DNA of 64,000 bases, from contig CM038917.1 of assembly GCA_021904315.1 (NCBI GenBank), forward strand, positions 9,842,041 through 9,906,040, in the 5' to 3' direction. Numbering within the stretch: position 1 is the stretch's first letter; the number at the start of each line of letters is the position of its first letter. This stretch comes from Sphagnum magellanicum. Lineage: Eukaryota; Streptophyta; Sphagnopsida; Sphagnales; Sphagnaceae. The notes under the pieces are model-generated. The model made no database searches and was not told the origin of the DNA. It saw only the letters and a list, made by a program, of their open reading frames with translations. This document shows positions 3,838 to 62,579 of the stretch, in pieces. The position numbers were made by a program, and so were the translations under genes.

Positions 3838-5248
3838 TTAGCATTTGAAGTTGTTGATTCTTTGAAAGCAAGAACTAAAGGAATTGAAATCATGTGAAAC
3901 AAATATGAGAATTATGTGAAAAGTAGTAAAGGAAGACTCACAAGTTAAAAAAAGAGAAAAGCAAAGAAATTCCATAAAACTAGCCCATGTTTCTTCTTTT
4001 GGTACTCTTTGAGGTGCATAAATGTATTCTATTATAGACCATCCAAAATTACTTAATTGACATAATCTTATTTGAGCTATGTTTACGATAATGACCTCTT
4101 TTAATTTTCCTTCTCCTTGAATGATCATAGACATTGTTCACCATCATTCATGCCAACCTTGATAGACATCATTATAGTAATTTATTATTAATTTTGATTT
4201 TGCCATGGTTTGCTCCTAATAATTAAAGAAATTGGAGTACATAATTATGTATTTTGCTTTTTCTATAGTCATTTTTAAACAAGTTACCACTTCTTTCCTA
4301 AGTTAATATATTCCATAAAAATATTTAAGTCCACATGGAAAAAAAGCTATTAAAATGTGTAAATAACAAAACTCTAAATCAACTTCATATACTTTTATAA
4401 ACATTTCTTCAGCTATTTATAGTAATAATAGTGGTATTTTTTTTCTTTTGGTGGATAATTCTTGAAAAAAATATGATTCATTTCCATAATTATATGTTAC
4501 CAAATCCTTGATCTATCTACATCATAATTGTAACAAATCAAGAGGTATGCACCATTTAATTAATGCATTAATATTTGGTTTTAAATATTCTTTTTCATCT
4601 CTCATACTTACAATATGATTAGTTGTTGTTATTTTGTCCACTCTTGTTAAGATAATAACACAAACTATTACAGGCAACCATTTTTTGTATTGACATAGTT
4701 TTGCACTATCAATGTATAGAATATAATTTTGTAATGACCATACATTTGTTTTTCCATTTAATTTTTGTAAAACTAATTCCTAGATACCTATCAATAGTAA
4801 TTTAAACCTATCAACAAATTCATTCCAATCGCCTTTTGTGAACATGATCTTGGGGTATATAAATAAGCATGTAGTGTCCACCCATACTTACAATGACCTC
4901 TAAGTAATTGTTTTGCCTCCTCTATTGGTACTGTAAATTTTTCCCAAGGAACAAGATTATACCCTCTTATCATGTTTATATATCATTTTTGAGTCTATAA
5001 ATAAAACATTCTTTAAGATACATTTCTCTTGCATGGTATTGTTCAACTTTTGAAAATAATCCAGAAAAATCTTGGACATAGTTACCACCTTCTATCAACA
5101 TATCTTCTAACATACAACCAGGTTGATTAACTTGAAAGGCTTTTAAATTAGAATAACATTTACCCCCATATTGTAATCGTATCCATTTGCTCAAAATATA
5201 AACAACACAAACTCCTACATTTATGAAATATATTTTTGCATCTTCCAT
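3838..5248 (-). pseudogene. Unidentified decayed coding-like tract with an internal repeat
   Basis: Three minus-strand open stretches (5248-4976, 4973-4791 and 4134-3838) have protein-like composition rather than the low complexity of their surroundings. Two of them resemble each other. Near 4870, KYGWTLHAYLYTPR in a frame starting MIRGYNLVPWEKF aligns with NFGWSIIEYIYAPQ near 4030, and both are preceded by a similar stretch about 15 residues long. This suggests a tandemly repeated domain or a duplicated gene broken by stops. I do not recognise the family; a transposon-encoded protein is likely given the setting. Confidence 0.3.
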
Positions 5249-5249
5249 G

Positions 5250-7080
5250 ATGAATTGATTTTATTAAATAATTCCCCAACATGGTTACCAAATGTTAATG
5301 ATGGTTTTGATGCGGCTTGGGTGTTCATCATTGATGGGTTCTTGTTTACCAAACTACACACAGTACCATATACCTGAATAATTAAGACACGTTACAAGCT
5401 ACAAATTTCTACCAACAAACAATGTGAGAGATGGAACATTCATGCATAAAACATCTTGTGAAACTATTCCCTGCCTCCCCTTATATCTCCATCCTCCTCC
5501 CTATCTCTTCAAACCTTTAGATAATTAAGCCTACATCATTTTGGTAAACCCATGAGTTCAGCACATAAATGTGTTAACAACTGAACCTAGTAGGTATTGC
5601 TAAATATTGGTAAGGTGTTTACCCTAGATCGATTATAGTTCAATTTGGTAGACAAACTATTTCATTTCAACAAGGCCCTTACTGAAACTTCTACAACTAC
5701 ACATTATTCCCTATTCCATAAACTTTATATTCCTAATAGAAAATGGGTGACTAACAAGGGGTTGACCACCAAGCCAACTCCAAGTTAATCCAACACCATG
5801 GAATTCAAATTTGCTCACTTGAAGGTTTTAGTTACAAAAATGGTGGCCTAAATGAAATCCAATGTACCTAAGGTAAGGGAAATCAAAGGAATGAAAAAAC
5901 ACCCCATCTTTTAGCTTGGATGTTGACCTCAAATTTTTTGTGAAGTCAAATTTTCAAGCCCATTAACCCCATAAGAAAGGATGTGTAATATTTTTGGATA
6001 TTATGTGTTGCAAATAGCAAATGGAACCCATGTTAAAGTTTCAAGTTCAATTACGGTGCTTTTGATGGCTACACTAGTGACAAGAGCAAATATTCAAACA
6101 TTGGAACCACAAAGCACCAATGAAAGATTGAATCCTGAGTGTGGGAAGCTTAATGTTAGGTACATTTACCCCAATCATTTGTGTCAGTAATCATAATGCC
6201 TAACCCAATGGGGGCATTGACTTTTGGTGATATGTCAATGATGTTGAGGAACAAGCCTATTTCCATTTTTGAAACAAGGACATTAAACATTTTGTCAAAG
6301 GCCACCATGGTAGTGTACAAGGCACCATTATTTTCCATTAAAACATTCATTATCTTTGATGTTCAACCAACAATAGTGTTCCACCTTGCGATCACTTTAT
6401 TTGTAAGCGGGGGAACAAAAACATGGGAGTTGAAGATTGGCTTAGTGGTTATAAGAGGTGAGATGTGTAAAACAAGACAACTACTACATGATCACATTGG
6501 ATGCTTTACCTTAACTTTAAAGAATTAGGCCAATTGAAAAGATGAAAGGTTTGAATCAAATTTGAGCATGATAATCCAAATTTTAAGCGACCTTACAAAC
6601 TTAATGAAGCGGAGAAAACCTTGGTTTATGCCCAAACAACCAGATGTTGGTTTAGTAAAATTGTCCACTTGAATGAATATGCTTCAATAATAATGATGTT
6701 AACCAAAAATTTGACATTTTTAGCAATTGGACAAAATGTCATGTGTGGAGATTATTGTTTAATGAACAAGTGGATGCATTTTAACAAATATGCCATGCAC
6801 CTACCAAATGAGATTTTTGACACCTTTGGGTAGGCCAATGTTTTCAACATTTGGACTTGTGGTTTAATTACCATTAATTGCCACTGAAGGAGGGTGACAA
6901 GGTCAAAATGACATTTTGGGGGATATATTTTCATGGGAAGGATTTTTTATAGCAAGTGTGGTTATGCCCTTGCAAATTTCGAAAGGACCATGGATTAAAT
7001 GTTGGTAATTCTTGATTTTTCCAAATGTTACATAAATAATATAATTGTTTTCAATTTGATTCTAAGGGATTGTATGAAAC
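5250..7080. other. AT-rich DNA, probably the 5' part of the Ty3/gypsy element
   Basis: No confident gene. An open frame of 115 codons at 6181-6528 (+) lies in the position expected for gag/protease of the downstream retroelement, but it has no motif I recognise. No LTR boundary, primer-binding site or zinc knuckle could be found by eye. The sequence is heavily decayed, like the reverse transcriptase remnant that follows. Confidence 0.35.
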
Positions 7081-7435
7081 ACATGTAGGAGGTGTTTGAA
7101 AGGTTGAAGGAACATAACCTTAAGCTTCATATAGACAAGTGTTGGTTACTTCCACCTGAGTGTGGAATATTTGAAACATATGATTTATCCAAGTGGGTTG
7201 GAGGTTTAAAAGATCAAGGTTGAGGTCATTCCACAAGTTCCCATTGGATGTTAGCTAGTTGCAAACATTTTTGGGCTTGTGTAATTATTATTAATGGTTT
7301 GTCAAAGGATTTAACAACATCACCAAAGTGTTGACTTGATTAACAAGGATTTACCAAAAATACATTTGGGGTGAGGCACAAAAGCATACCTTTCAAGAAT
7401 TGAAGGCCCAACTCACATTTATGCCCATTTTACAA

Positions 7436-7575
7436 CACTAGTAGAAATCCCTTGATTTACGACTAGTGTTTACGACTAATTTTTAGTCGAAAGCGACATT
7501 TTACAACTATTTTGCTGTTAGTCGCGTAAGACAAGTTGCAAACGACAAATAGTCGCAAACGACAATTACATCAGC
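7436..7575 (+). repeat. Left terminal and subterminal repeats of the Pack-CACTA
   Basis: The terminus CACTAGTAGAAATC is followed by repeated short motifs GACTAGTG, GACTAA, TAGTCGAAAGCGAC, TTAGTCGCG and AATAGTCGCAAACGAC in both orientations. These are candidate transposase-binding sites. A related but C-to-T decayed version of this block is visible in the CACTA at 23546. Confidence 0.8.
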
Positions 7576-7911
7576 ATGACGTCATCAAATGGTGGATGGA
7601 GCCTAAATGTAGTATATACGGTTTCATTCGATGGGGCCAGTATATACATTATGTATACAAGGCATCATTTTGTATATATTTTGTTTTTCCTGATCGTGTG
7701 GGTAAGGAGTGGCCATGTTTTTTCCGATTAACTAATGGGTTGTTGCCACATGGCATGGTTTCTAGTATTTGGGAAACCGGATTGTGATTTTGAATTTTTT
7801 AAATCAAATGGCCAAGAAATGGCCACGTCTTTTGTGTTTGGTTAATCGAAATGTGCCACATGTCTCAATATGAGCATTTTGAAAATTTGAATCGCCATGT
7901 GTCACATGGTC

Positions 7912-8062
7912 CCACTATTAGGGTTAGGGTTAGGGTTTAGGGTCCCACTTTTAGGGTTAGGGTTAGGGTCCCATTATTAGGGTTAGGGTTAGGGTTTAGG
8001 GTCCCACTATTAGGGTTAGGGTTAGGGTCCCATTATTAGGGTTAGGATTAGGGTTTAGGGTT
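7912..8062 (+). repeat. Telomere-like minisatellite
   Basis: Runs of TTAGGG with interspersed TTTAGGG alternate in a higher-order pattern. A 33-base unit (GTCCCACTATTAGGGTTAGG and rest) and a 26-base unit lacking the final TTTAGGG alternate about five times, each starting GTCCCA(C/T)TATTAGGG or a variant. The block lies inside the left arm of the Pack-CACTA, not at a chromosome end. Confidence 0.85.
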
Positions 8063-8359
8063 CATCTGCTTTGTTCAATGTGCTATCTAGAATTGCCAAG
8101 AGTGCTTGTCAACAACAGATCGATCAACAAAACTCTACAATCACTGAGAAACACATGCACAAGGCAAAGAACTACATATTCCAAAAGGAAAGTTACAAAA
8201 TTGTGGGAACATTTTCCAAGGTTCAGCAATAGCAAAAAAACATTGTGCAACAGAAAGGTGATTTTCAGGCCTCGACTACCAATTGATGCCAAAGAAGAAA
8301 ATGTCTGCAATGGCCTGGCTTGAGTGCTATCCCTTTTTCCCTGTCTGGGTTCCCGAATT

Positions 8360-9300
8360 CCAGAACACCCTGAAATTCTTGAAGACTCCAGGGCATAAGT
8401 GTCGCGCTCCCAAATTCCTCGTAGACCCACTTGAGGGTCTAGGTGTGTGGCAATACGGAAGGAGTTGGAACTTGGGGCACGATCCCGACTTCCAGCACTA
8501 GAGGGGGTGAGAGGGGCGTGCTAGAAGTCCCGGGAAAGACTAGGAAGAATTGACAAGCTTACTCACTCACACGGGCCTGCATGGAACCACACAAAGTGGT
8601 TAGAACTCATTCTGGATCCCTTTGGTGTTAGGACAAGCCACGGGCAACACGGACACACAAGACTCACCACGGCCCGGACCTTGGGGGAAGCCACCACTTT
8701 CCCCCTTATAGTATACTTTGTGACTCGTCGCGGGGGTGGCATCCAAATGGCCATTTTGTCCCGGGACTCCCGGGACTCCCGCGTGGGAGTCTCGAAATCG
8801 CGCATTTTCGGGACTCCCGCGACTTTGAGGCTTCATAACTTTCGGAGCAGACCTCCGATCGACTCGACGTCTGAAGCAAAGTTGTAGGTCTCGTCGAGAC
8901 CTTTCCAACGGTATGTCGCACGTTTTCTGCAGCCAAGTATTTCGGGTCGATTCCCGACTTTTAGTGGTCGGGAGTCAAAACTGGCGGAATCCCGGGAGTT
9001 CGACTCCCGGGCCTTCTTTTGGCCATAACTTGTGTTTCAGATGTCCAAATGAGCAATGCGAGCCCATTTTGGACATCTACACTTCAAAACCTTTCCATTG
9101 ATATAAAGAGCGCAACCAGCCATGGAGTTTTGACTCCTCAAAACGCTCTCTGAAGTTTTGGGAGTCCTTTTGGGACTCTAACTCTCATCAACTCCCAACA
9201 TGGGAGTTCACTTGGGAGTGTGAGGGTTCATTCCCTCACACTCTTTGCACTCCCGGGAGCATGTGATATGACTCCCGGGTCTACTTATAGGCCCGCAACC
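8360..9300. mobile_element. GC-rich LTR-like block inside the Pack-CACTA
   Basis: This segment is far more GC-rich than the rest of the window and is saturated with variants of GGGACTCCCGGGAGT. A stretch at about 8828-8930 (CATAACTTTCGGAGCAGACC, then TCGAGACCTTTCCAACGG) is the kind of sequence I associate with plant Ty3/gypsy LTRs (the 'ataacttt...tccgatcga...tttccaacgg' pattern). CTTATAGGCCCGC near 9285 and CTTATAGTATAC near 8704 could include TATA-type promoters. No paired LTR, TG...CA ends or internal pol region was seen, so a solo LTR or LTR fragment carried in the CACTA is the best guess. Confidence 0.4.
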
Positions 9301-10024
9301 TTGCAACCCCCTTGCCTTGGTCGCGAGCCAAGGCTAGGGTTGCGACAATAAGACTGCCCCCACATGTTCCTCTCTTGCAAAACCATGAGCTCAGGTGATG
9401 CTTGATTGCGCATACCTGATCCTCCTATGTAGTTGCAAGACGAATGCTGGGCAAATTGAGTCTGTAGTCTGTGAGACTGGTACTTCCTACAGTTTTTCAA
9501 GTCAGCCTGACCTATACTTGTTGGAAACTGCCTGTGCTTTTCTTGAGCCACCTGATGTGAGGGTGGAACAAGTATAATTCTGGGGTGTATGGGTTGATGT
9601 AGGGTTCTCAAACTCTCCGGTGTTCTCTGAAGTGTCCATTGAAATGCATTGAGAGCATTGTGTTGCTATGGACAGAGCACTGAAAGCAAAGCTTGCACAA
9701 AGATGAACACAAACAGCTTATCAAAGATGTTTCCACTGTAGACTTGTGAGTGTAGAGCATTAGACAAACATATGAAATTGCAGCTGAAGATATGAGACAT
9801 CTTCACAGTCAGAGACAAGTACCCAGTCAGACACCTATGCAAAAAACAAGAATTCAAAAAGCTATAGCACAAAGAAGGAAAGTCTTTTCCTGCTTTATCA
9901 GACCAGGCACACACACAAATCTCACATGGAAAAGATACAAACCAAGCCAAGGTTGAAAGAAGCAGGAAAGAGAGTAGCCTAGACCTCAACAATGGAGCAT
10001 AAGCATAGATAAAGTTGAGCTTAC
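9300..10024. other. Unassigned interior sequence of the Pack-CACTA
   Basis: Composition here is gene-like (about 45 percent GC), but no exon could be recognised. The NSF exon expected after the one ending at 10025, encoding the start of the second ATPase domain after the P-loop, is not visible on the minus strand. The captured NSF segment therefore appears to end at or just beyond 10025. A stretch near 9640-9660 resembles one near 10350-10380 (GCATTGAGAG). Confidence 0.4.
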
Positions 10025-12571
10025 AATTTTAATGAATGGAAAACCACTTTCAATTCCAATAATTGTTGCCAATGCTGTCTTACCACTGCAGGCAAGTAAA
10101 AAACATGTGATAGTATACATGTTACTTCTTATGCTAAAACTGAAAATCATTGCCACTTATTCTGATTGCATGAAGCAAGTCAAACAAGCAGAAATGCCTC
10201 TTCACATATGGATATTTGCAACTTGCTCATTATGAAAGATGAAGGAAGGAGAAAACACATTTGAAGCATGACTCTGTCCTTGATGCTTCAAGCATTTTCT
10301 AAGCAAAAGCACCAGCACAAAACTCATAGCAACTGCCCTTAGCATGGAACTCTTGCAGCCTCTCACAATGCATTGAGAGGATTGCACCCAAAAAAAGATA
10401 TGTACCTGCCACTAGGCCTTCAAGGAGGCAAGTGAGCAGAGGTGTTCTTTCACTTTGAATGATACTTGCTCCACAAAAGTCATGACTGTTCTTTGAATAT
10501 GTGCATGTCTTTCTCCACAATCCAGCATCCCATTCAATCTGTAATGCCCAAACTGAATGAGTAATCCTGCTAAGGTACAGTGCTGCAGTGCTTACATGAC
10601 ATCCCCCCAAGACAAATGAGAGTGCCATAAGCAATAAAATCTTTACTGGCTGTTAGACACAAAACCAATTTGAAAGCAATTTGTTTGAAAACAGTCAGGA
10701 AAGATGAACCTGCACATTTCGGGAGTGTTGATGGCTGCACCAAATGCAGGTTTCACCTCATTGAGAGTTGACATGAAATCATCCATGGTCACTTTGATGT
10801 TGTCCTCAACTATTTCCCTTGAAAGGTTTGCAGCATTCACTTGCCTGAAGCAATCACAAAGCAGGAACTGGGCTTAGCAGAACAGAAAGCAACCATGAAT
10901 TCAAGAGTGTCTGCAACTCTTGATTACTTGCTTCTTTACATTGTCAGACTTAGTGTATAATCCAGGCAACCAACTAGCTTAACACATGAGAGGTGTGGTA
11001 AAGGTAGCATGGACTGGTTTGCTTCTAATTTCAATTGACTGGGTTGTTGCTGGTACTGTTAAGCTAGAGCAAGATAGGCTTGGAAACACATTCTTGATTT
11101 TGCCAAAATCTAAATTTCCCAAAATAGAAAAGGATGTCACTTGAAAGTTACAAAACCTGTTGAGAGCAAAAGATGTTGCGCTTTTAACCAGCCCTTCCAA
11201 CTCTGCTCCACTGAAATTCTTTGTTTTTGATGCTGCACAAACCAGAATGCTTCATAACCAGCTCACCACTTCCTAAACAGCAACTGCACAAGTATAGAGG
11301 CCTCTGAAAAAAACATCAGCTTGATTGAACTAGCTTCAATTTGGTCTAATAATTCCTTAACAGTGTGCTAGATGAAACAAACCACCTGTAGTCAATGAAA
11401 CAAATGCATTGAAATTTCAACCCACACAAAATTGCCAGATTGACCAACAAAGGAGTCTACCAAGTTCTTTCAAGTTAACATCAGCACTGAGAAATGAGTT
11501 CTCTTTCATCTTGTTAGAATGGATGCTTAGGATCTGGAACCGCCCTTTCTCATCTGGCAGTCCAATCTCAATTTGCACTTCCATACGACCTAGCCTGCAA
11601 CAAAATATAGGGTCAAACCAAAACCCAATGTTGCTCTACAAAGCAATAACATCTTTGAATTCATGTGGATGCCCATCCCTGTTCCATTCAACATACAGCT
11701 ATCCTGTTGCACAACAGTAATGCTGTAGAGTCTCTATCCATGAGAAATGAAAACTCAAATAAGCATATTTACCGTAACAGAGCCTCATCAAGGAGGTCCT
11801 TTCTGTTTGTCATTCCAATGAGCAAAATGTTGTTGAGGGCTTCAACACCATCAATCTGTCTAGCAATTCCAAGATTTGAACACTCTGCCTTAAAATTAGC
11901 AAGTTTGAGCTCAGGATTAAGAAGACCTGAACAACTAGCACTTGAAGATTTCTAACTGACCTAGGGGTCTCCTATAATGTAGCAATGGTAACACATGTCC
12001 ACATTATGTGTGTACCTTTGTAAGCAGCTGATTGACAATGCTGTCATGCACTCCTGTTCCATCCCTTGTAGAACCTCTAGTCTGTGTCCCAAAGAAATGT
12101 GCACATCAGTTTTGGCAACAAGATCCTCAAAATCGCCAACTATGTAGGGGAGTGAGTACCAACAATTGACTCTCAACTCTATGACTTGTAATATGTCCAA
12201 AACACCACCCAGAACCATGATGCCAGTGTTACTACTGATAGAGGGGTTGGAAACTTTACCCAGCCCCAGAAACCAACATTCACATAATTTGGTCAGGACA
12301 ACGTCCAAGAAAACCATGCTACACATTTTACTAGTGTTATGCAATCCTGGCATTGCACAAAATTAGGGACTTGGATTGTATTATCTGGGGGAAAATAACT
12401 CATTGCATCTGAGTAGGAGATCAGGAGCTTCAAACTACAGAGGTGCTAACCAGGAAGTGATTGCTGTAACAAAACCATAATTTCAAGACTGCAAAATGGC
12501 TCCAGAAGGACATACCTTACAAATGGCATCAATCTCATCAAAGATTATGATATGTAAATCACTCTGGTCAC
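10025..12571 (-). pseudogene. NSF (N-ethylmaleimide-sensitive factor) gene fragment, captured by CACTA
   Basis: Eight minus-strand exons with plausible GT-AG borders encode the middle of NSF, the AAA ATPase that disassembles SNARE complexes. Exons: 12571-12516 (Walker B, IIIFDEIDAIC), 12081-12016 ([20 protein letters not shown]), 11855-11773 ([20 protein letters not shown]), 11594-11462 ([19 protein letters not shown]), 11232-11157 (KNFSGAELEGLVKSA), 10845-10710 (IKVTMDDFMSTLNEV), 10538-10406 (NGMLDCGERHAHI; TPLLTCLLEG) and 10085-10025 (SGKTALATIIGIESGFPFIK). This is roughly a third of a ~740-residue protein; the N-domain, D1 Walker A and most of D2 are missing. Exon 10538-10406 carries an indel between about 10443 and 10470 and a 1-base loss near 10415 that destroys the D2 P-loop frame. 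The arginine-finger RPGR has become RLGR. Introns are retained, so it came from genomic DNA, not a processed mRNA. Confidence 0.88.
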
Positions 12572-12599
12572 CTACAACCCACAAAAACATAATTTCAGA

Positions 12600-13470
12600 G
12601 AATATCAAGATGGAATTAGTGGCATTCGGCTATCACAAGCACATTACAGTGCCTGATCCATGCTGAACATGGTAGCTTCCACAAGCTGTGATATAATCAA
12701 ATTGCAGTTCCAGAATCTCCCAACCAAGGCTTCAAGCATTGTTGATTTTCAAATTTAAGATCCCCCATTGACATACTTGTGAATAACTAGGAAATATCCT
12801 TGCAGCGCACACTTTTGTGACCCAAAAATGTACACTCACCTTGTTCTTGACCTGGACTGTTCAAGGCCAGTGTGCACACAAAACCTTGAGGCTAACATGC
12901 ATCTTCCAGAGAACTTTTTAACTACGTCTCATGGGTATCACAAAAGGGAGATGTGTAAACAGCTCAAACAAGATATCAATCTTTAAGCAGATAGTGAAAA
13001 TGGAGACACATGTGGGAAATGCATTTCAGCAATGCCTCAAAAGATGTGTCGCTCGCCTCAGCCATAGCAGATACTTTCGTGAAAGATGCTTTGAAGTCTT
13101 GGAAATCTTAACTCCTGCTCTTGGTGTTAAGACACATGCATTCATGACAACTGATTGATATGATTCAAAAGAACAGAACCAGATTGAGATTGCAGCAAAT
13201 AACTCACACAAGAATATCTTTATATGTAAAGATAGGTAGAAGAGAGTTGTGGAGAAACACCTTCATCAGATTCTTTATAATGAGCCGACTGTTGACTGCA
13301 ATCAGGATAACAAGGCACAGATTGAACAGCCATGCGTGATTCTGCTCCAGTTATTGCCATGCCCAAACACCAGATTGTATAGATTCCAGAATTGGATTCA
13401 GACAGAGAGTATATGGATGCAGGATACAGAACAGGAAGAAAGAAGCATATTAGGCACCCAAAGATATACT
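12600..13470. other. Unassigned interior sequence of the Pack-CACTA
   Basis: This lies where the upstream NSF exons would be expected on the minus strand, but I see no Walker A motif or N-domain sequence. Open frames on both strands (for example 12931-13158) show no family resemblance. It could be NSF intron sequence or the junction to the next captured gene. Confidence 0.35.
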
Positions 13471-14823
13471 AATAGATGATAGAGAACAAACAAGAAACGC
13501 CAAAAGAAGAAGAAACAAGAATTTGGGCTTGCCTGGTTGAAGATTGCATCTGAACTAAGAAGGCTTTTTCGGATCTGAAAGTGAGATGGTGTGCTTGCAG
13601 GCTGGGTGTGTTTCATTCGGCTATGTGCAGTAGCCTTAGGCTCTGACACTTTTTGCACTCCGTCGCTCTCACGCACAGCAGCTGAGAGAAGGCTACTATT
13701 CGCATCGACTGACATCATCGTCGCTAACTTTCGAGATCTTAGGTGAAGTCCAGAATTGATGTTGCTGCTAATGGTGCTCTCAACTTCCTCAGAGGTGCTA
13801 TCTAAGTCCTCCGCCGAAATAATCTTGGAGACTTGAGCTGAATCAGACTCACCTTCTGCAACGCCCCCTCCCAGAAACAGTCTAAGATAAAACTGCCAAA
13901 GTCGGTGCTCTGCTAATTTGCTTCTTTTTGTTGTTACCACCCATTGCCCTGGGCGAACTCGTTGTTGCTGTATCTATTATGCTGCTGAACCCTAACCCTA
14001 ATGCCTTATTACCTCTTCCTCCGATGACTGCGTCCGTTCGTGCTTGTACCACTTGAAAAACTGCTGAAGATGTAGCGTTCACATCACTGCCCTTCGCAGG
14101 TATGATGCTCGAATCCTCCAGCTGAGGCAGTCCACGTTCCGAAGATACTTCTTCTCGAACAATTGGACCCCGAAGATGTTTCTTCGACTTGATTGTTCTT
14201 CCTGTAAATCTCGATTGTTCTTCTTCTTGGACATCTGCTACAACAGGCCTTACATTAGCAGGAAATTTTTCTTTTCCCATGGACGTTGATGAAGGCGATT
14301 TCTGAAGAAGAAGGCTTCGGCTTCTTCTTGTTCTCTCTTCAGCAGAAGAAGAAGGTGCGGTAAGCAACAGCATGCTTCGAGCACGTATGCTCTCTTCTAT
14401 CTGCACACGGAGTAACCTCGATCGATCTGTAGAACTCTTTTTCCTCTTCCAGTTCACGCTTCTCCTCTTCGATCCTTACAATGACCTCTCGCAGACCCTC
14501 GATCGCTTCTTGATCGTGCATTGACTTCTGTTCCACCACCTGCTGGAACTGTCTAGCTTCCATCAGCACTGCGGCTTTTTCTTCTTGGAGACGCGCAATC
14601 ATTCCCATGGCTTCGTTTGCCGCCGTCACGGACGCATTTCTCTCTTTCTCCAGTTCCAAATACATCGCAGCCAACGCCTCCCGCTCGGTTTGCGGAAGCG
14701 GTTCCTCTAGCTCCTCATATTGTTTCGTGTGCAATTGATCACCGTCTTCTTGTTCTTCTTCTTCTTCTTCAGCAGCTTTTTCGCTTTTAGTAGCATTGGT
14801 GAGTTCTTCTATTGGTCTTCAAC
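13470..14823 (-). pseudogene. GTD-binding (DUF593/zein-binding) coiled-coil protein fragment, captured by CACTA
   Basis: The minus strand is open from about 14823. An acidic run (about 14780-14740, mostly Glu) leads into a clear GTD-binding domain at about 14700-14420: EREALAAMYLELEKERNASV, then AANEAMGMIARLQEEKAA, then DQEAIEGLREVIV and EKEFYR. In plants this domain occurs in proteins that bind the myosin XI globular tail, often membrane-anchored. After EKEFYRS the frame changes near 14400-14420 and continues as an open Ser/Arg-rich stretch to about 13885. It changes again near 13885-13940 and stays open to about 13540. The two frame changes, the missing N-terminal membrane region and the CACTA context indicate a broken fragment. 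The extent beyond the domain is inferred only from open frames. Confidence 0.75.
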
Positions 14824-14939
14824 GAGCATCCCTTTCGCCAGTTTGTTTCCAAGAACTCTCTCTCCTCTGTAGCAGCAGATATGTAGGTAGAACCTCCTCT
14901 ACCCGCGCACAACAAGAGCTGCTGTTGTTATAACACACT

Positions 14940-15088
14940 ATGTCGATCTTCCAGAACTTAAGAGTGAAAGTTTCAATTGGTGAAGGGAGTATTCATGATA
15001 ACAAAAATCAATTGGATGGAAGGAAAGCCATGCTTGTACAGAAGCTTTGCCTGCCCCTCAACAGAGACAACCAAGTAGCCACAGATGG
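14940..15088 (+). other. Candidate captured exon, family unknown
   Basis: An ATG at 14940 opens a frame of about 49 codons (starting MSIFQNLRVKVSIGEGSIHD). It reads in frame to GATG followed by GTGAGT, a good splice donor at about 15088, with a stop just beyond. Codon use looks more gene-like than the flanks. I do not recognise the family. It could be the 5' exon of a fourth captured gene, an upstream exon of the HIR fragment, or a chance frame. Confidence 0.3.
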
Positions 15089-15543
15089 TGAGTGATTCTC
15101 AAATGCCTATTCCTTCTCACATATAGATAAGTGGATTGCTACGAGATTGATACAAAAGCAGGAAGGATTGATGATCCCTTTTTTTTTGTCTTCACCCTTT
15201 TTTGAGTGCATCATGGATTCAATACTTGCAAATTGTTGCTGATTGAGTTTCTAACTAATCTGCTTCAAGATTTCTTCCTTGGGTTGGAAGGAAAAAGTTC
15301 GGAATCTTGTTTCCTGCCAAAGGAAAGATAGACAGAGACTGTGTCGGACTTCTTTTTGTCTTTGGGTGAAACAACAGCCTTTGGGTTTTATCGCCTGCTA
15401 TTTTATTTTCTCTTGCTTTGTTGGGACTGATGTGGTTTACAGTCTTCTTACTTATGCCAGATTTTTGTGCATCATCTGAGTGTTGAAAATGGGTTGTTGT
15501 TGTTGTGTTGTGCAGATCTCAGACCTGGTGGGGTGAAGGAGAC

Positions 15544-16250
15544 ATGGGGCAGGTGTGTGGTTTATACCAGGTGGACCAATCCATTGTTGCTGTCAAGGAA
15601 AAATTCGGAAAATTCAGTACTGTGCTTAGCCCTGGTTGCCATTGTGTCCCATGGTGCTGCGGTGTCAATGTTGCAAGTGTTCTGTCCCTTCGCATCCAGC
15701 AGCTTGATGTCCAATGCAAAACCAAGAGCAAGGTCTAGTGTTGTTTTTTTTCCCCTCTCCCCCGCCCACCCACCTGCCTGCCTGCTTGGATCTTTTATCA
15801 GTGGTCTTGTGAGGATGAATCAGAGCTCAGGGGTACGAATTGTGGGGTTTGTGTGTCTGTGATGTTCAGGACAATGTCTTTGTGACTGTAGTGGCATCAG
15901 TGCAATATCGAGCACACATTGAGACTGCTGAAGATGCCTTCTACAAGCTCACGAATCCACAGGAACAAATCAAATCATATATATTTGATGCTAAGTATAG
16001 CAGTCCTTGTTACAAACAGTTGATGTGATCGGTATCAGATTTCAATGAGTAGGCCTTATGTTCAAGCAAAATGGCAACTATATAGACATATATATATGTG
16101 TTCTTCATGTGATCAGGTTTCAATTCTGAGCAGAATGTTGTTGTTTGTTTGTGAGCAGTTGTGCGGGCTAGTGTACGAAGGATGCTTCTTGATGATGTTT
16201 TTGAGCAGAAGAATGACATTGCAAAGAATGTGGAAGAAGAACTTGAGAAG
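15544..16250 (+). pseudogene. Hypersensitive-induced reaction (HIR, SPFH/Band 7) gene fragment, captured by CACTA
   Basis: Three + strand exons encode the N-terminal 134 residues of an HIR protein, a membrane-raft SPFH/prohibitin-domain protein linked to plant defence. Exon 1 (15544-15732) starts [20 protein letters not shown] and includes PGCHCVPWC and QQLDV. Exon 2 (15870-15990) has [15 protein letters not shown] and [18 protein letters not shown]. Exon 3 (16159-16250) has VVRASV and LLDDVFEQKNDIAKNVEEEL. Phases join exactly (189+121+92 = 402 nt). The intron after exon 2 begins CTAAGT where GTAAGT is expected, so the donor is mutated. The remaining half (the usual protein is about 285 residues), starting at the AMSAYGYEI-type segment, is absent after 16250. 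The N-terminal Gly-2 myristoylation context is retained. Confidence 0.88.
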
Positions 16251-16303
16251 GTCAATTTTCTTTATTCCTTTCTGATAGCAACCATTTTTGTTTCACCTGG
16301 CAG

Positions 16304-16399
16304 CAGTTTGAGGATGCTTTCAGTTCTCCAACCCTAGCTGGAGTAATGGAAGAAAATGATGATGTTGATTTGTCTATTCCAGACACAGTTAAGTCATAA
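16304..16399 (+). other. Candidate captured exon downstream of HIR, family unknown
   Basis: After a CAGCAG acceptor-like sequence at 16301-16306 the frame FEDAFSSPTLAGVMEENDDV and DLSIPDTVKS runs open to a stop at 16397-16399. It is acidic and protein-like but does not match the HIR segment expected next. It may derive from another gene joined to the HIR piece. The ORF is only about 31 codons, so chance cannot be excluded. Confidence 0.25.
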
Positions 16400-17164
16400 A
16401 ATTCGTTTGGGAATGTGCTTAGGTTTGGATATACTGTTTCTAGCATCTGGCAGGCCTGATTTTGTTAAAAGTCTTCATTTTCATCTATATTACTCAGGTT
16501 ATATTCGAACTAGTTGGAGCGCTTGTGGGCAGGGCTAATGTGCTACATGGCCTGCTAGAGTTTGCTAAGTTACTTAGAATTGTGTAGAATGTTACATTTA
16601 GTTTTTGTAAGCATCAAATTGATGTACTACATGACATTCTTTTTTGAGCCAATAAAATCACAAAAATTTAGGATTGAAGACTTAAATGTTTGGATTATAG
16701 GAGTAGAAATGTAGGTTTTTTTCCCCTATTAGATTGCAACACTTAAATCTGGGCAAATATATTGGAACACTGATTTGGAAAACCACATAAGGCATGTAAT
16801 ATGACCTGGGTATAATCTGTATATTATTTTAAACAAATTTAACATAAATAAACTAGACAAAAACTAAGGTGATGTATGCAATACATATTCAAGTATGCTT
16901 CAAATACAACTTACATACAATTTAAATACAACCATTATATATAACCAGTAATATATGGGTACATCTTAGTATGTACCCATATAAAATAACGAGTAGAATA
17001 CATTCAATACACAATTGTGGACCCCTTATGCCTAAAATATGTATAATACATTTGGAATATTCATAGGGCTATGACTCATTTGGTGACATTTGCAACTAAT
17101 GGTAGGTAGAGGGGTCTTCTTGGATGGAAATTGTAATGAAAGCTATCCAAATGAAAGGATGAAA

Positions 17165-17317
17165 TAATCCATTAGTCGTAAGTTAGTCATAGAGTAGTTG
17201 CAAGCGGCTTCAAATGCAAACAGTAGTTGTAGATATAACCAATAGTAGTTGTAAATGTCAAATAGTCGCAACTAGTCGCAAATTCGTTGGTTGCAAAATC
17301 ACAGATTTCTACTAGTG
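17165..17317 (-). repeat. Right terminal and subterminal repeats of the Pack-CACTA
   Basis: Motifs ATTAGTCGTAAGTTAGTC, AGTAGTTGTA (twice), AATAGTCGCAACTAGTCGCAAA and TTGGTTGCAAAATC precede the terminal GATTTCTACTAGTG. They mirror the left subterminal block in inverted orientation. The block ends exactly at the CAA target duplication. Confidence 0.8.
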
Positions 17318-17480
17318 CAATGACCTATTTGGGGGTGACCTTTCCAATTGCATATGGATTGAAAATACATTTGGGGCAAGGCACAAAAGCATGTCTTTCA
17401 AGAATTAAAGGCCCAACTCACTTCTATGCTCATTTTGCAATAACCCATTTGGGGGTCACCTTTCCAATTGCATGCATGGA
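17318..17480 (+). repeat. 120-bp tandem duplication in the Ty3/gypsy target
   Basis: Right of the CACTA, CAATGACCTATTTGGGGGTG (17318) recurs as CAATAACCCATTTGGGGGTC (17438), a period of 120 bases. The sequence AGGCACAAAAGCAT(G/A)(T/C)CTTTCAAGAATT(A/G)AAGGCCCAACTCAC occurs at about 7375-7420 and again at about 17381-17421. With the CACTA removed, two tandem copies of this RNase H-adjacent segment are seen, so the duplication predates the CACTA insertion. Confidence 0.75.
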
Positions 17481-18646
17481 TTGAAACACTTTAAGGTTAA
17501 ATGTGGTATTTACCCAACTTAACAATGATGCTCAAGAATTTGTGATGGGTTATATTAATTGAACCAACAACAAGATGGAAACAAAGTATAGTTCATATGA
17601 AATGGAGGCCAATGCTTCATTGTTGTCTGGGTTGTTTCATCATTACAATGTTTATCTTTATGGTAGTTTGTTCAAATTGGTTATAACAAACTACTGGAGC
17701 CATTCAAGTTTTTAATGGAATCATATTGTCTCGTAGAAAAATTAATTAGGCGGGCCTTTATCCTATGGGAGTATAACTTTGACATTGTTCGTTGGGCTAG
17801 AAGGGTTAACTAAGATGTCCATAGATTAAGTCAAAATCCAAGTTCTAATGAAGAGGATACCACTAAGGCTTGTTGGCATGGTGATGTCGATTTGGTGGTA
17901 CTAAGGTGATTTTTTAAACATATTTATGTACCTTTTTGGGGTGTTTTAAAGATGGATTTCAAATTACCATGTTAATGAGGATTCTTGGGATGTAGACATT
18001 AAACTAAAGGGTGATGGTGCCTTGAACATATATGAGGATTTACATGTTATTGCATATTTATAAACAATTGAATTTCTAATTAAATTGACACCCAAGGAGC
18101 ATGATCAAGTTGTGCATAGGGAAAAACAATTCAAGTGGGAAGGTAATTTCCTTCCTATAAGTGTGGACAAATGGATGAATGTGATTTTTGTTTTGCTCAA
18201 AACAACATGAGGGCCTTATGTTGCATGTTTATGAAGAGTTGGGCCATTTTGGTGTCCAATGGAATTACAATTTGTTCCAAGCATAATATTGGTGGTGGGC
18301 GATGCAATTGCAAGTTCAACAATTTGTTTCTTATGGGTGGTGTGTGGCCAAGTGTGAGCATCATTCAATGCACCTACATTTCATTTATAACCATTGCCCA
18401 TAATGGGGATTGGTTATTAATGTAGTTTGGGTTTTGCTAGCCCATTGAATTTCACAATGCAACATAACTAATACAATTAGGTTATGATCGAATTTTTTTT
18501 AAGTGGCTAGAATTGGTGCCATTGTTAAATCATAACAAACAAAGTGTTGCCTATACATTTTTGGACATGGTATTTAATAGGTTTAAGGCTCCAATTGAAA
18601 TACTAGTCGATCAAAGTACAAAATTCCATGGGGAATTCTAATAATT

Positions 18647-21600
18647 CATTATGAGAAATAGGGTGAAATATGATTGGGATTGCAACTTGGTTTTTGAGTT
18701 GCAATGACCACTTGCAATCCAACATTTCTATGCCATGAGTCCTATTTGACAAGTCGCATGAGTTGTAACAAATGCAACTCATGCGAAACAACTTCATTAT
18801 AATTTCATAGTAACAACTTCTATGCAACTACAAATGCAACTAATATGCAACTTTATTGTAATTCTAGGTGTAGGGGGAACATATTACAAATTGGAATTGC
18901 ATTTCCACTTGGTGACAAATAACTTATGCACATTGGAGTACATGTATGTAACCACAAGTTCATCACATGGCAACTACCTTGAAATTGAAACTATGGATGT
19001 CTATTGTTAAATGATTATTAAACAACTTCTTCCTTTCACCATTTTTGTGCAATAGTTGTTTCATAGTTATCCCATAATTGGCCCCTAAAACAATAGGCAA
19101 CCTCACAATTAAATTACCAAAGAGCTAAACAAATTTACAATTATGTAATTTTTTCAAAACAACTATAGTGATACTATTGTAGTATTATTTAATAACTACA
19201 TTTTTTACACATAATGGCATTTTCGCAATTAAAATAGAACCATGGGGTTCACCATAATTGCCATGGAGTTGAAAGATTACAAGGGGCAACTATTGAACTA
19301 TTATGTAATAATGAACTAGTAGGGCTATTGCAATTAAAAAATAACTATTGTGTTCATATTGAGCACTACTCTATATCTATATTCCCCAACAAATGGACAT
19401 TGGTTTACAACTATAGATGTTATATTATTAGGTCCATATAGTTGTAAAGTAGTTGTTTAAATTACCAACTATCACTAAATGACAATTACTTATAACTTAA
19501 GAACAACAAAACTTAAAGCAATTGAACATCAACCAATGTTTTTTTCAATTACAACTATGTGCATATTATTTAACATTGGTTTGGAACTTAATATAATCCA
19601 TTGAACTATATATAAACATATATGCATTAACATTCAAGGTTTAGGGCAAAAAGATGTTCCTTTTGATTGAAATATAATTTAATTATAAATTTAAGTATAA
19701 TGCCCAAGCTAATTATGGCAAAGGTTTCCTTTTCCCATACAAAGGGTCATCACAAATACAATGAGCCACAACAATCAAATATTGTTGTTTATAATTCTTA
19801 AATTTTATTTCCATTTAATTTGTGAGATTTTTTTTTATTTTGTTGAAATGGAACTTAAAACACAACTTTTTCATTCTACTTTGTCTACTTGAAATTTGTC
19901 ATATTATGACAGTTAATGATGTGAAATGAGGTTAATAACATATGAATAACATTGTAATGTTGAAAATATTTATATGTCCATATTTCAAACCTATATGAAA
20001 TTATTTTACAACTATAGTGACACTAACTTTGCTCTAATAAAAAATATACATAACACATTATGATTTCATTGTAATAACATTAACATAATGCAATTACAAT
20101 GTCATTAAGACTCACATAATGTGACAATAATGTCACAAAATATCATTTGTAACTCTAATACATATTAAACTACAACTTGCATTCATACATAATGATAATT
20201 TTCAAAATAAGATGCATCACATAATTGGAGTATCAAAGTTAGACTTATCATATTTGGTTTCTTGTTTCACCTTTGTTGTTTTACCATTTGTCCTACATGT
20301 TTTGGTTTGATTCACTACAAATAAACAACACATTTAATGACATAGTTATTAACAAATTAGCCAAAATGTATAATATCACTTGTGCATGTTCTTCTACTTA
20401 ACTATATATTTTCAAACACAACCACCACTTCTTTTTGAAAAAACCTTACCTTTTATGTACAACTTTGATTTTGTTACAATCAAACATTATCAATAAAACC
20501 CTAATAACACCCCAAAAAACCAATGAAAATTTAAATAGATGTAGAAACTGGTTTTGTTTGAATGAGCGAAAAAGCACGTTGGACAACCGCCAAAACTTTA
20601 TAAAAATTGTAATTTTGTTAGATATATATTTTTGGTGCCACTTTAATGCCATGTTAATCATGGAATATAATGATAAATGACTAATATGAATGTTGAAGAA
20701 TTCAAAAAAGAAATTAAAAAAAAATATTTTGGTTTTTGGTTTTAATAAAGGACATTTGAACTTGAGCAATAGTTGTATCAAAAGAAGTCAACTTTGTAAA
20801 AAACTAAGCTAAATACTCTTTTTATAAAGGAATTTTGATGAGTGAAAAATTGAGTTGATGTTACTTAATTATCCACATTCAAAAAGCACTCACAATTTGA
20901 AAGTTGTGAAATTTAAAACTTTAAAAAATTAAAATCTATTGAATAGAAATTTAAAATTTCAAGAATCTTTTACCACATGTAAATGGGGTGTAATGTACAT
21001 GACATCTAAAACAAAGTTGTAGTTTATGAAAAAAATAATTAGAAAAAAAAACAAATTTTCATACAATTTGAAATTAATATTTTTTTTCAAAACGAAAGAT
21101 AAAATTTGGTAGAATATGTACATTTTTCAAAAATAGTTATTCTTGAAAAGTAAATATTAAAAAATTGATGTATTTTTAATAACATATTGCAACAGATTTC
21201 ATCTCAAAAATCTTTTTACGAGAAAGTGAAAATGACCACAAAAGGACTGCAATCCTTGAGTCCTTCACCATCGTTGGCTTATTTGATTGTGATCGCACCC
21301 CTTTTGTCATTTGCTTAGGAGGTTTTCACCCAAATTTCATATTCTCAAATTTCTCCAAGTTGAAATGTAATTGCATTCTAGTTGTTCACAATGACCACAT
21401 GTATGATTTAACTAACATGAGTGACTTGGCTAACATGTCAAAATTGGTAGATTTGGTTGTTTTGATTCGCATGTCTATTAGATGTTGGGTGTTAGAAAAA
21501 TAAACCCCATCTCTTTTCTAGTTCATCATAATTTTCTGAAGAGTAGGCATAAGCACATGAAGGTTGTTGATGTAGAAAGGGATATCTATTAAATTATTAT

Positions 21601-22321
21601 CACATGCCATTTGCTTTTACATATTTTCACATTTCAAATTTCAATTTGAAATTTACTTGCATATTAATTGTTCATAATAACCATGTGTATATGTGAATTT
21701 TTTTAATAACATTGGTAATGTAATGTGCATTGTAATGGGATTGATAATACAATGTAATGTTGCTTCAATCTCATTTAAGAACTACATTTTCAATTAATTA
21801 TATAGTTTGCATGTCTGATGTGATATTGTGGGTTGCAACATAATTGACACTTGTTAGTTGTATCATTGTTGAATAATTGTCCCAAAATAGTTAACAATAA
21901 TCTTCATATAGTCAAAACTTATGCATTGACATAATTAGTTGTAAAATAGTTTCAACTACCAAATTTAATTGATGATGGCAATGCATACATGTCACATGAT
22001 CGTATCTATTAAGGCCATACACTGATTGCAAAGTTATCATTGATGGGGTTTTACATTTACCATAATTATAATGTTATTGTCACATGCAATTAAAATGCAA
22101 CTTGCCAACAAAATCAAACATGGCTAACTACAATTATATTTGTAATGCATACAAATGTCCATTTTGTAATTACAGTATGACTCCTTGATTTTTTAATGTG
22201 ACATTTTATTTATTAATTCGTCCTATTTCCATGGGATAGTTGTAGTGTAGATGTATATTAATTGTTTTGGAGCTTTAGTTACAATGCAGTGTAGTTGTTG
22301 TTGACATGATTTTTCATAGTG
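18647..22321. mobile_element. Second CACTA element, non-autonomous, 3,675 bp
   Basis: Left end CATTATGAGAAATAGGG (18647) and the reverse complement of the right end, CACTATGAAAAATCATG (right end 22321), are diverged CACTA-type termini. Flanking trinucleotides are ATT (18644-18646) and GTT (22322-22324), one mutation apart. Removing the element restores the integrase frame: left flank GAATTCTAATAATT plus right GTGTGAGAAA gives a GEFxxLCEK-type reading followed by INHRTTS. The interior is AT-rich with many TTGCAACT/GTTGCAA motifs near the left end. It has no recognisable transposase or captured gene; the longest frames are about 110 codons and low complexity. Confidence 0.75.
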
Positions 22322-23110
22322 GTTGTGTGAGAAAATATTAATTAATCATCGCACAACTTCATAAGACCATCTTGAGGCAAATGGATTGATTGAACGAATG
22401 GTGCAAATGGTAAAACAAAGTTTGCAAAAGTATTGACTCTAAAAAATCCATATTAAAGATTAGGATCTATAATTACCATGGTTAGTTATGGGGCATAAGT
22501 TTAGTCAACAAACTTTTCTTGCATCATTGTTACCATATTTTTGGTTATTTGGTCATGAGCTTGAACTATCAACCTCAATCTGACAAAATGAGATGGCAAT
22601 AATCATTATTTGGATGATCCAAATGTGTGACTTCATGTGAGTAACAAGCAACCTTGTTCCAACATGTAATATGCCAATGACTATGGAAAATTTGATAACA
22701 ATTCAATGCTAAAATACATTTTATTATGCCAATATCCATGGAGGTGGTTATTAACTTTGAATCCATGGATTTGAATCATGAGATTATCTATACTTGTGGT
22801 AAACAACACCAACTATGTTAGATGTGATTGCATCATGTGTTATTTTGTGTGTGCAAAAGGTTTTACCTTTTGCAATGTTGTTGTTGGGGGTTGAGATGGT
22901 TAGACATGGAAGGACCACATGAGTAACCACCATTGTGTCATCTTTTTAATGTGGATGGGCAAATTGACTTGTCCCTAACGATGGTCCCTATTGGCCTATG
23001 GTGTATGTTGTGCAAACAATTTTTAGGGGCCACCATTATGCTGATTTGTCATCCTTTTTCCTAAAGGTGGAACATGGGATGTTTTATGCCACCATTAAAA
23101 AAGATATAGG
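22322..23110 (+). pseudogene. Ty3/gypsy integrase C-terminal half with PHD-finger-like tail
   Basis: Frame-broken translation gives CEKILINHRTTS, then DHLEANGLIERMVQMVKQ (integrase core end), LPWLVMGHKFSQQTF, PMTMENLITIQ, and DYLYLW with KVLPFAMLLLG (the beta-rich C-terminal region). At about 22990-23090 a Cys/His pattern follows: WCMLCKQFLGATIMLICH, then RWNMGCFMPPLKK. Its spacing resembles a PHD finger (C-x2-C ... C-H/D ... W-x3-C, then PPL). Several codons have turned into stops. It is the 3' coding end of the Ty3/gypsy element. Confidence 0.65.
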
Positions 23111-23545
23111 TGTAGTTGCTAATTAATATGGTAACTACATGACAATTGTCAAAATTGTTAATTTTGGGGCCTATTTAAATCATAACTAGGTTAGTAATAA
23201 ATTAAATTAACATAATCAATTGCACTTTAACTTGGAACTAATTCATGTGTGAAAGGGGTTCAAACTATTTAATGTTTGGGATATAATTTGAAGTTCCAAA
23301 ACACATGGTGTTATTCAACTTTGCTATTTTTATTTGTTTTGTAAGTTTTCTATTGTCCATGGTTTTGTGTGTTGTGGTTTTCCATATTATGTATTGGGCT
23401 TGGACTTTTGTTTGTTGCAAGTGAATCTTTATTTTCTTTAAGTATGATGCATTAATTGAAGTTTTTCAAGTTATTTTGTGTGGTGTGTGGACAACAATAG
23501 GTGTAGGTGTTGATATGGTAACGCACATCATGTTGGAGCTATTTT

Positions 23546-24672
23546 CATTGAAAAAAGTCTTAGTTTGTGATTATAATTTGCAATTCAAAATAAGCTACAT
23601 ATATAATTAAAATTCCATTAATTACATAAGTGAAATTGCATGCAACATCTAGTCACAAATGATGATTTATAATGATGTCATCACATTCCACACGGATGTT
23701 GTATATGGTCAATATTTACACCCTCATCCATTGACCATATGTATAAAGTTTGCAACTAATCACCATTATTTGCAACTATTTTATAACCCAACAAAGCGCT
23801 AGATGGCAACATAATATTTTGTTAAAATTATGTTTTAAAAATACTTAATGGATCCTCATTATCTATTTTAAATGGTGTTAGATCATGCCATGTGGCATGT
23901 TAATTGAGACTTGGCCATAATAAATTTAAATCAATATTTAGATAGGTAGGACATAAGTGGGTATGAAAGAAGGTAAATAAGATTATATGAGTTGGTAGGT
24001 AGGACTAGGTAAGGTAGGTGGGTAGTTAATCCAAAAGGTAGATTTGTAAATATTTTTATTTTATTTTAGGTTTTATAAATGTTTTCAATATAAAAATTTA
24101 AGGCAAAACACCTTCTTTACATACTTTTACAAGATGGAAATGGAAGAAAAAAACATATGTAACTATGTATAACAAATTATTACTATGAACTAACTAATTA
24201 CCTTGTAATGAATAGGAGATATTATTCATAGTAAATATAAGAATCAGTTTTAACTAATTAATAATTTACTTACCAACTTACTTAACCTACATAGGCACAA
24301 TATATATATATATATAATATGCCCTAAATATAAGATAATTAAATTAATGAATATATAAATATACTTTTAATATATTTCAAAACACTTTAATTTACACCAA
24401 AAGTATATGTGCATCATATAAAAATAACCAAGTTGTGATTACTTTTGCAACTAATTGAATATATAAACCTAATTGAATGAAAAGTATAAAAAACTAGTCA
24501 ACATGAAAGGATGCAAAACTTAATAATCGTTAATTAGTCACACCATAATAATAATAAAAGATTGAAATGAATAGTGACTAATTATAAAAATAACAAAATA
24601 TACTTGCAAATGACATTTAATCACATATGATCACAAATTAAATGGTTGCACAATACACAATTTCTTACAATG
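23546..24672. mobile_element. Third, decayed CACTA element, 1,127 bp
   Basis: The left end CATTGAAAAAAGTC (23546) and right end CAATTTCTTACAATG (ending 24672) are flanked by TTT on both sides. The last 65 bases align with the right end of the 9.9-kb Pack-CACTA, with TAGTCGC changed to TAATCAC and similar C-to-T/G-to-A shifts. A left internal segment (TGATGTCATCAC near 23673) aligns with TGACGTCATCA near 7577. It is a short non-coding relative that has been decaying longer. Confidence 0.7.
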
Positions 24673-30849: not shown

Positions 30850-31650
30850 TGTTTTCATACGTTCCAACTTGGATAATGTAAGTATGGCCACATGTCAGCT
30901 GATGAGGCTGATGACTTTGAAAGGCCTGTTTGAGGTGTCTTGATGAACAAGTGGCTTATCTGATAACTGCAATTTGCATTGCCCCCCTTCATGGCAACTT
31001 CAAACCAGCAAGGGTTACCTAAAATAGTAGGAAAGGTTTCCTTGAAATTATCCAATAAAAGGAACTCACGTCTCATAATGAGGGACCAAGTGAACTCTGC
31101 AAAGTTGTGTCCCTAGACCCTACCCCATATGACATCCACATGCTTTTTGTTTTGTACTAGTCTCTCCCGGAGAGGGGCACCACTGACAAATACCTCATTG
31201 GCCCTAAATACAGTATCTTGAGGACAATGGATTCAATAAGACAAATTGAGCACAATGACTCCTGACAACCTCATCTTTTTGTCCCAGTCCTGGTAAAGAG
31301 TGGAGCTCACATCCAAAAGCATCTCAATAAACCCTTTACTGGTTGAGAACTGGGCATCCACCAAATCACAAGATGTTATGTCCACCGATCACAATTTGTA
31401 GAGATGTTTTTAAATATAAATAAGGTGGAGGTCCCAGTCTTGGTAAAGGCTGGAGCTCACATCCAAAAGCATCGCAATAAACCCTTTACTGGTTGAGAAC
31501 TGGGCTTCCACCATTTCACAATATGTTATGTCCACCAATCTCAATTTATAGAGATGTTTTAAAATATAAATAAGGTGGAGGGGGTTCAGGAACTTGTTGT
31601 TCGCCCTCTTAGGTGGTTCATTTGTCTTCTTGAACGTAGGTCCTTCCATT
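30850..31650 (-). pseudogene. Unidentified protein remnant with internal 50-codon duplication
   Basis: A single minus-strand frame with a few stops reads through about 800 bases in protein-like composition. It includes VEAQFSTSKGFIAMLLDVSS, DTVFRANEVFVSGAPLRERL, HVDVIWGRV, GHNFAEFTWSLIMRREFLLL and TFPTILGNPCWFEVAMKGGN. The upstream part contains the 150-bp tandem duplication, so 50 residues occur twice. I do not recognise the family; it may come from a transposon or a host gene. The stops indicate a dead copy. Confidence 0.5.
31281..31580. repeat. 150-bp tandem duplication
   Basis: GTCCCAGTC(C/T)TGGTAAAG starts at 31281 and again at 31431. Each unit is 150 bases and ends TATAAATAAGGTGGAG (31430 and 31580). 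The copies differ at about ten positions. The length is a multiple of three, and the minus-strand frame stays in phase across both copies. Confidence 0.9.
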
Positions 31651-33390: not shown

Positions 33391-33399
33391 AGTCCCAAT

Positions 33400-33703
33400 G
33401 ACGGTGTTTTTTTTTTTTTTTTTTTCAATTTTGTGATGTAGCTCCACTGGCGATCATCCATAAGATGATGATATAGCCAGATTTGGCTACAGACTAGATA
33501 TGAAAGAAAGAAAAAGAAAAACAGGATCCTTCTTGGCTACCTACTGGAACTTATCATAAAAATCTGGCAATTTGGAAACTTTTTTCTTTTTTGAAATCTG
33601 GCGAATTTGGGCCAATTTTTTCCATGGAAAATCCTTTGTACAGGTGGAAATTATATTTTTCAGGTCGAAATTTGGCGAAATTTCGCCCCAAACAAAAACA
33701 CCG
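33400..33703. mobile_element. hAT-like MITE, 304 bp, with perfect 8-bp target duplication
   Basis: The element is flanked by GTCCCAAT at 33392-33399 and 33704-33711. Ends are GACGGTGTTTTT on the left and, reverse-complemented, CGGTGTTTTTGTTTGGGG on the right. Internal markers TTTTGTGATGTAGCTCCACT, GGCGATCATCC and AGCCAGATTTGGCTA link it to the copies at 46309 and 46930 and to the cluster at 1-1010. Eight-base duplications point to the hAT superfamily. No coding capacity. Confidence 0.85.
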
Positions 33704-46308: not shown

Positions 46309-46575
46309 CAGTGTTCTTTTTTTTTCCCCCAATTTTGTGATGTTGCTGCACTGGCGATCAACTACAATTGGAGATTTAGCCACATTTGGCTATAGACCAA
46401 CTATTTAACTAGAAATTTATTAAAATCCTTTTATATCCTGGCTACTTGCTTGAAAAATGTGTAGAAACGTGGTGATTTTTAGAATTTTTTTTCCCCAATT
46501 TTGGCGATTTTTTTTCGAAAAAAGAGAATGTTTCACAGAATATTATTTTTTGAATCGCCACAAAAAAAAACGATG
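46309..46575. mobile_element. hAT-like MITE, 267 bp
   Basis: The left end CAGTGTTCTTTTTTTT follows CCCCAGCC (46301-46308). The right end, reverse-complemented CATCGTTTTTTTTTGTGGCG, precedes CCCCAGAC (46576-46583), so the target duplication matches at 7 of 8 bases. Internal TTTTGTGATGTTGCTGCACT, GGCGATCAACTAC and AGCCACATTTGGCTATAGAC place it in the same family as 33400-33703. Confidence 0.75.
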
Positions 46576-62575: not shown

Positions 62576-62579
62576 TGCC

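Follow-up and report, generated by a model that had tools for sequence, protein, structure and literature searches.

In a 64,000-nucleotide stretch of Sphagnum magellanicum DNA (assembly GCA_021904315.1, contig CM038917.1, positions 9,842,041 to 9,906,040; hereafter the window, in which positions are numbered from its first base), a complete and apparently non-autonomous CACTA element of 9882 bp occupies positions 7436..17317. The element holds pieces of three unrelated gene families in mixed orientation: an NSF piece and a GTD-binding piece on the minus strand, and an SPFH/Band-7 piece resembling HIR genes on the plus strand. A previous sequence-only reading had proposed a Pack-CACTA transposon of this composition, and the terminal inverted repeats (TIRs), the target site duplication (TSD) and the Pfam and PDB matches bear it out. 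We consider it very probable that this is a non-autonomous Pack-CACTA that was inserted here by cut-and-paste, after an earlier capture of the NSF, GTD-binding and SPFH/HIR-like pieces from genomic DNA.

Termini, target site and autonomy

The left TIR, CACTAGTAGAAATC, lies at 7436..7449 on the plus strand and its exact reverse complement, the right TIR, at 17304..17317 on the minus strand, confirming that the repeats are exact over 14 bases. Both are bordered by the trinucleotide CAA (7433..7435 on the left and 17318..17320 on the right). Allowing up to two mismatches, the sole further match to CACTAGTAGAAATC in the whole window is located at position 243, with two mismatches. A script searching for CACTA-tipped inverted pairs of at least 8 bp, flanked by a 3-bp duplication and spaced by 0.3-20 kb, retrieved the 7436/17317 pair as the single one in the window. 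In random first-order Markov sequences, such a pair was found in 73 of 300 at a length of 8 bp, in 6 of 300 at 10 bp and in none of 300 at 14 bp.

The strongest evidence for the insertion comes from the flanks. A self-comparison of the window revealed a 79-bp copy of the left flank (7357-7435) at 17362-17440, with 88.6% identity, and an ungapped repeat search of 6800-18000 (listing the 25 longest among 66 inverted pairs and, out of at least 60 direct families, the 20 largest) recovered positions 17316-17353 again at 17436-17473, with 92% identity over 38 bp. Joined to each other with a single CAA between them, the two flanks align to 17362-17483 over approximately 120 bp, without any gap at the junction and with one 2-bp gap farther to the right. 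The score of the joined flanks peaks at a duplication of 3 bp (164, vs 150-159 for lengths of 0-2 and 4-7), which upholds the proposed CAA target duplication. Since the joined flanks match the neighbouring copy across the junction, an uninterrupted copy of the target (17362..17483, plus strand), i.e., an empty site outside the element, adjoins the insertion within the window. The gene-like exons at 7436-17317 could alternatively belong to an ordinary gene-bearing region surrounded by inverted repeats that arose by chance, but the match of the joined flanks to the empty-site neighbour refutes this reading; in addition, no random sequence contained a 14-bp pair with a TSD, and neither the NSF nor the HIR-like piece is a whole gene. 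We regard its probability as negligible.

The TIRs starting with CACTA, the 3-bp TSD and the short subterminal repeats in both orientations place the element in the CACTA (CMC/EnSpm) superfamily. The subterminal repeats, variants of TAGTCGCAA / TTACGACTA, are found at 7457..7567 on the left and 17090..17281 on the right. The motif TAGTYGYAA is matched 22 times across both strands of the window, where 2.2 matches are expected: nine are no farther than 200 bp from a tip, on both strands, two lie deeper in the element and 11 outside it. The binomial probability of nine tip-proximal matches is about 7e-15, for a motif that was picked after inspection. The proposed mirroring of the subterminal repeats therefore stands for these short motifs but not for a long inverted repeat: beyond the TIRs, the inverted similarity of the ends reached a gapped score of 16, within the range of 500 shuffles (mean 12.1, maximum 18), and was rejected as not above chance. 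Eight of the 11 matches outside the element are TAGTTGTAA/TAGTTGCAA sites at 19405-24445 that resemble the subterminal motif; the only TIR-like site in that region is at 22308, with three mismatches, and no CACTA-tipped pair with a TSD was found there.

No transposase Pfam domain was detected in the six frames of the whole element (stops read as X), where the only matches were Zein-binding and, below the cut-off, AAA-lid and AAA. Therefore, the element looks non-autonomous. The same scan missed the Band_7 domain encoded by short exons, so that a transposase encoded by several small exons might also escape it, while a normal long domain should be visible. The element thus presents host gene fragments (NSF, Zein-binding and Band_7) between TIRs without a transposase, as Pack-TYPE elements do. 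The self-comparison (E<=1e-4) did not retrieve copies of the element cargo elsewhere in the window, the duplicate of the flank being the only match. In NCBIfam, the HIR-like and NSF pieces were matched below the cut-off only and the GTD piece was not matched, and the window contains neither Rfam families at the gathering threshold nor tRNAs.

The captured gene fragments

The NSF fragment (10025..12571, minus strand) is supported by an exon map, a three-frame reading and PDB and Pfam matches. We mapped eight exons, at 12571-12516, 12081-12016, 11855-11773, 11594-11461, 11232-11157, 10844-10710, 10538-10406 and 10085-10025, which follow the gene order and whose joined frame remains open for approximately 200 codons. 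AG is present at all eight acceptors and GT at all eight donors, although these canonical ends are partly so by construction because the exon ends were placed with splice signals in mind. The homology switches frame twice in exon 7, indicating two frameshifts, and exon 8 carries on in the third frame. The pieces align to residues 323-570 of the vesicle-fusing ATPase chain 9olo (E=6.6e-79), a segment that presumably begins in the last part of D1 and reaches into the first part of D2; Pfam AAA is matched with E=1.1e-18. The mapped piece includes neither end of the gene. The intron-containing NSF fragment proposed on the minus strand is therefore confirmed.

The second fragment (13401..14818, minus strand) belongs to a Zein-binding/GTD-binding gene. 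Its open frame 14818-14342 matches Pfam Zein-binding (PF04576, E=1e-26), with the domain near 14441-14692; we take this family to be the GTD-binding domain of myosin-binding proteins, in agreement with the identification made from the sequence. Two other open frames on this strand, 14475-13885 and 13973-13401, did not match any Pfam family above a cut-off and probably represent the rest of the GTD exon, split by frame breaks.

The third fragment (15080..16250, plus strand) covers the 5' portion of an SPFH/Band-7 gene. Its layout comprises an exon of the 5' untranslated region (5'UTR) ending at 15087, a UTR intron, an ATG at 15544 and coding exons at 15544-15732, 15870-15990 and 16159-16250, which encode an SPFH segment of 134 residues. 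Pfam Band_7 (PF01145) is matched with E=3e-18 by a hand-joined chimera of 165 residues, and a PDB search with the piece retrieved HflK (E=9e-6). The claim of an intron-containing HIR fragment thus holds for an SPFH/Band-7 piece that is HIR-like, the name HIR being our assumption from the resemblance to plant HIR sequences.

The 165 residues of the chimera include a possible terminal exon at 16304..16399 (plus strand; 31 codons and a stop), and this raises the question of whether the element bears a working chimeric gene, in which splicing would link the HIR-like 5' region and exons, in phase, to a new terminal exon followed by a poly(A) signal. An AG acceptor whose last base is 16303 does match the phase in which exon 3 ends, the 31-codon tail ends in a stop followed downstream by AATAAA at 16651, and the hand-joined frame of 165 codons is open. 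However, only seven of the eight splice sites of this chain, counting the acceptor of the 16304 exon, are canonical: the donor of exon 2, after 15990, is CT instead of GT, and retention of intron 2 stops the frame after 115 codons. Moreover, the 31-codon tail has no recognised relative in Pfam or PDB. We therefore consider a working chimeric gene highly unlikely. We give even less credence to the more elaborate idea that the element would be a gene factory caught midway, in which the HIR-like exons and the new terminal exon would yield a truncated SPFH protein while the NSF and GTD pieces would be silent passengers. If it were true, this truncated protein, of 115 codons when intron 2 is kept, could disturb the host's defence-associated HIR oligomers.

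Origin and setting of the cargo

We propose that an ancestor of the element took up genomic DNA from NSF, GTD-binding-domain and SPFH/HIR-like genes, the presence of these pieces being recognised by homology and their acquisition being the proposed step; as the fragments keep their introns, it would be genomic DNA that was captured. Later, cut-and-paste transposition would have brought the element into one of the copies of a duplicated, apparently decayed piece of retroelement DNA, leaving the CAA duplication. Recognition of the TIRs and of subterminal motifs of the TAGTCGCAA type would fall to a transposase supplied from elsewhere. The captured pieces may be passengers decaying without protein function and, if transcribed, might at most provide cassette exons or a source of small RNAs. 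Signs of decay are the two frameshifts in NSF exon 7, the apparent frame breaks of the GTD piece and the lost splice donor of the HIR-like piece.

Several observations weigh against this Pack-CACTA reading. No sister element, donor gene or transposase partner was seen in the 64-kb window. The Band_7 E-value was obtained on exons joined across the broken donor, while HIR-like exon 1 by itself scores 18.2 bits, below the Pfam cut-off of 23.6, and neither exon 2 nor exon 3 singly matches Band_7. The NSF exon ends were placed by hand, guided by splice signals, and subterminal-like motifs similar to those of the tips occur outside the element, as the 11 of 22 TAGTYGYAA matches found there show. Finally, no remnant of a CACTA end was found inside the element at up to two mismatches, leaving a model of capture by tandem elements without direct support. 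Internal CACTA ends were considered as remnants of stepwise capture and none was convincing: the interior TIR site at 14801, with three mismatches, is at chance level, as the window contains eight such matches where 6.6 are expected.

The number of captures could also be smaller than three. The GTD piece on the minus strand and the HIR-like piece on the plus strand lie head to head, pointing apart and separated by no more than a few hundred bases: the GTD frame starts near 14818, and on the HIR-like side the 5'UTR exon reaches to 15087, with the ATG at 15544. They might thus derive from a single uptake spanning the upstream region that two divergent genes share, NSF having been taken up in a separate event. 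However, a stop precedes the GTD open frame, and the GTD piece may or may not include the start of its gene. We hold this reading to be possible but doubtful.

A further alternative is that the gene pieces were carried in by a Helitron or a Pack-MULE nested in the CACTA element, rather than by the CACTA element itself. The GC content of the interior is indeed variable, being 0.50 at 8063-9380 and 0.47 at 13401-14900, compared with 0.37 and 0.31 at the two ends. In contrast, among the 25 longest of the 66 inverted pairs, the first measures 31 nt (74%) and has one arm outside the element, and the longest wholly interior pair measures 28 nt (71%); among the 20 largest direct families, the longest interior one, apart from a minisatellite, is 28 nt. 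Nested TIR or long terminal repeat (LTR) elements were likewise sought in the interior and rejected, with no long repeat pair among the matches listed, in a search that did not scan Helitron ends. We regard carriage by a nested element as improbable, and capture by the Pack-CACTA itself remains our preferred reading.

Among the remaining cargo, the minisatellite (7908..8061, plus strand), detected by the repeat analysis, has a compound unit of 59 bp (26+33) with TTAGGG/TTTAGGG words. The sequence-only reading had described telomere-like cargo; such words are present, but they belong to this array of 26- and 33-bp units and not to a plain telomere tract. It had also mentioned LTR-like cargo, for which we found no support, neither as a long direct-repeat pair among the matches listed nor as a Pfam domain, although a solo LTR could still be present. 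GC-rich cargo (50% GC, no Pfam domain) occupies 8063..9380.

Regarding the surroundings, the plus frames of 17318-20000 give matches to RNase H followed by integrase zinc-binding domains, all below the Pfam cut-offs, and the right flank is possibly the decayed pol of a Ty3-type retroelement. The target of the insertion is the duplicated piece adjoining this possible pol. No Pfam family was found in the plus frames of the left flank (5000-7435). Elsewhere in the window, a Nodulin-like/NFD4 major-facilitator gene extends across several open frames at 38675-41018 on the plus strand (Pfam Nodulin-like, E-values of 1.4e-40 and 2.7e-43; NFD4_C, 3.9e-8 and 5.2e-13). Self-complementarity reaches 66% over 690 aligned columns in a large imperfect palindrome at 95-758 and 64% over 716 columns in a second one at 46331-47009, parts of which recur at 33379-33608; the two are perhaps miniature inverted-repeat transposable elements or foldback-type elements. 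Tandem duplications were observed at 62234-62581 (171 bp x2, 100% identity) and 31281-31581 (150 bp x2, 92%), the complete identity of the former indicating a recent duplication.

Comparison with known CACTA elements

The soybean Tgm-Express1, located in intron 2 of F3H in the wp allele, is 5.7 kb long and carries five unrelated gene fragments with both introns and exons, the latter being joined by splicing into chimeric transcripts (Zabala and Vodkin, PMC1947982). Both are CACTA elements in which introns and exons from several unrelated genes of the host are found, but the Sphagnum element measures 9.9 kb, has three recognised families and lies in apparently decayed retroelement DNA. In addition, chimeric transcripts were seen for Tgm-Express1, whereas for the present element they would be a prediction. 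In maize, Pack-TYPE elements often hold more than one locus, Pack-CACTA most of all, while in rice a significant multi-locus share is described only for Pack-Mariners (Gisby and Catoni, PMC8903248). With the Pack-CACTAs of Arabidopsis, rice and maize (PMC8903248), the present element shares non-autonomy, CACTA tips, target duplications and the presence of gene fragments, which in maize often stem from several loci; its tip starts with CACTAGTAG, whereas the Arabidopsis Pack-CACTA work used CACTACAA. Therefore, given the five fragments of Tgm-Express1 in 5.7 kb and the several loci frequent in maize, the suggestion that this is an unusually rich example is not supported. Concerning the mechanism, a 2026 review describes capture via aberrant excision of neighbouring elements (PMC13317346).

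The Jozin CACTA elements of Chenopodium also contain captured gene fragments, together with a captured tandem-repeat array (PMC8978399). The first 12 bases of the TIR of Jozin in C. pamiricum, C. iljinii and one C. quinoa element are CACTAGTAGAAA, as here, and the 12-bp subterminal motif TATTTGTAACTA of C. pamiricum resembles TTTACAACTA/TTTGCGACTA of the present element (PMC8978399). A literature search for the string CACTAGTAGAAA retrieved this Chenopodium paper and an archaeal one. In contrast to the present element, the Jozin elements encode a transposase, and in C. sosnowskyi and C. vulvaria the tips already diverge in their first 12 bases (PMC8978399). As the termini are so short, membership of the same family is unproven. 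Our literature search, limited to the listings of papers, retrieved nothing on point for CACTA elements with hypersensitive induced reaction genes or for CACTA gene fragments in fern.

Elements of this kind are documented in several plants, and this one opens no new question. Nevertheless, it represents a well-bounded capture of gene fragments with an empty site in the same window, making it a useful worked case for annotation: without the boundaries of the element, gene finders could call NSF, GTD and HIR genes at 7436-17317.

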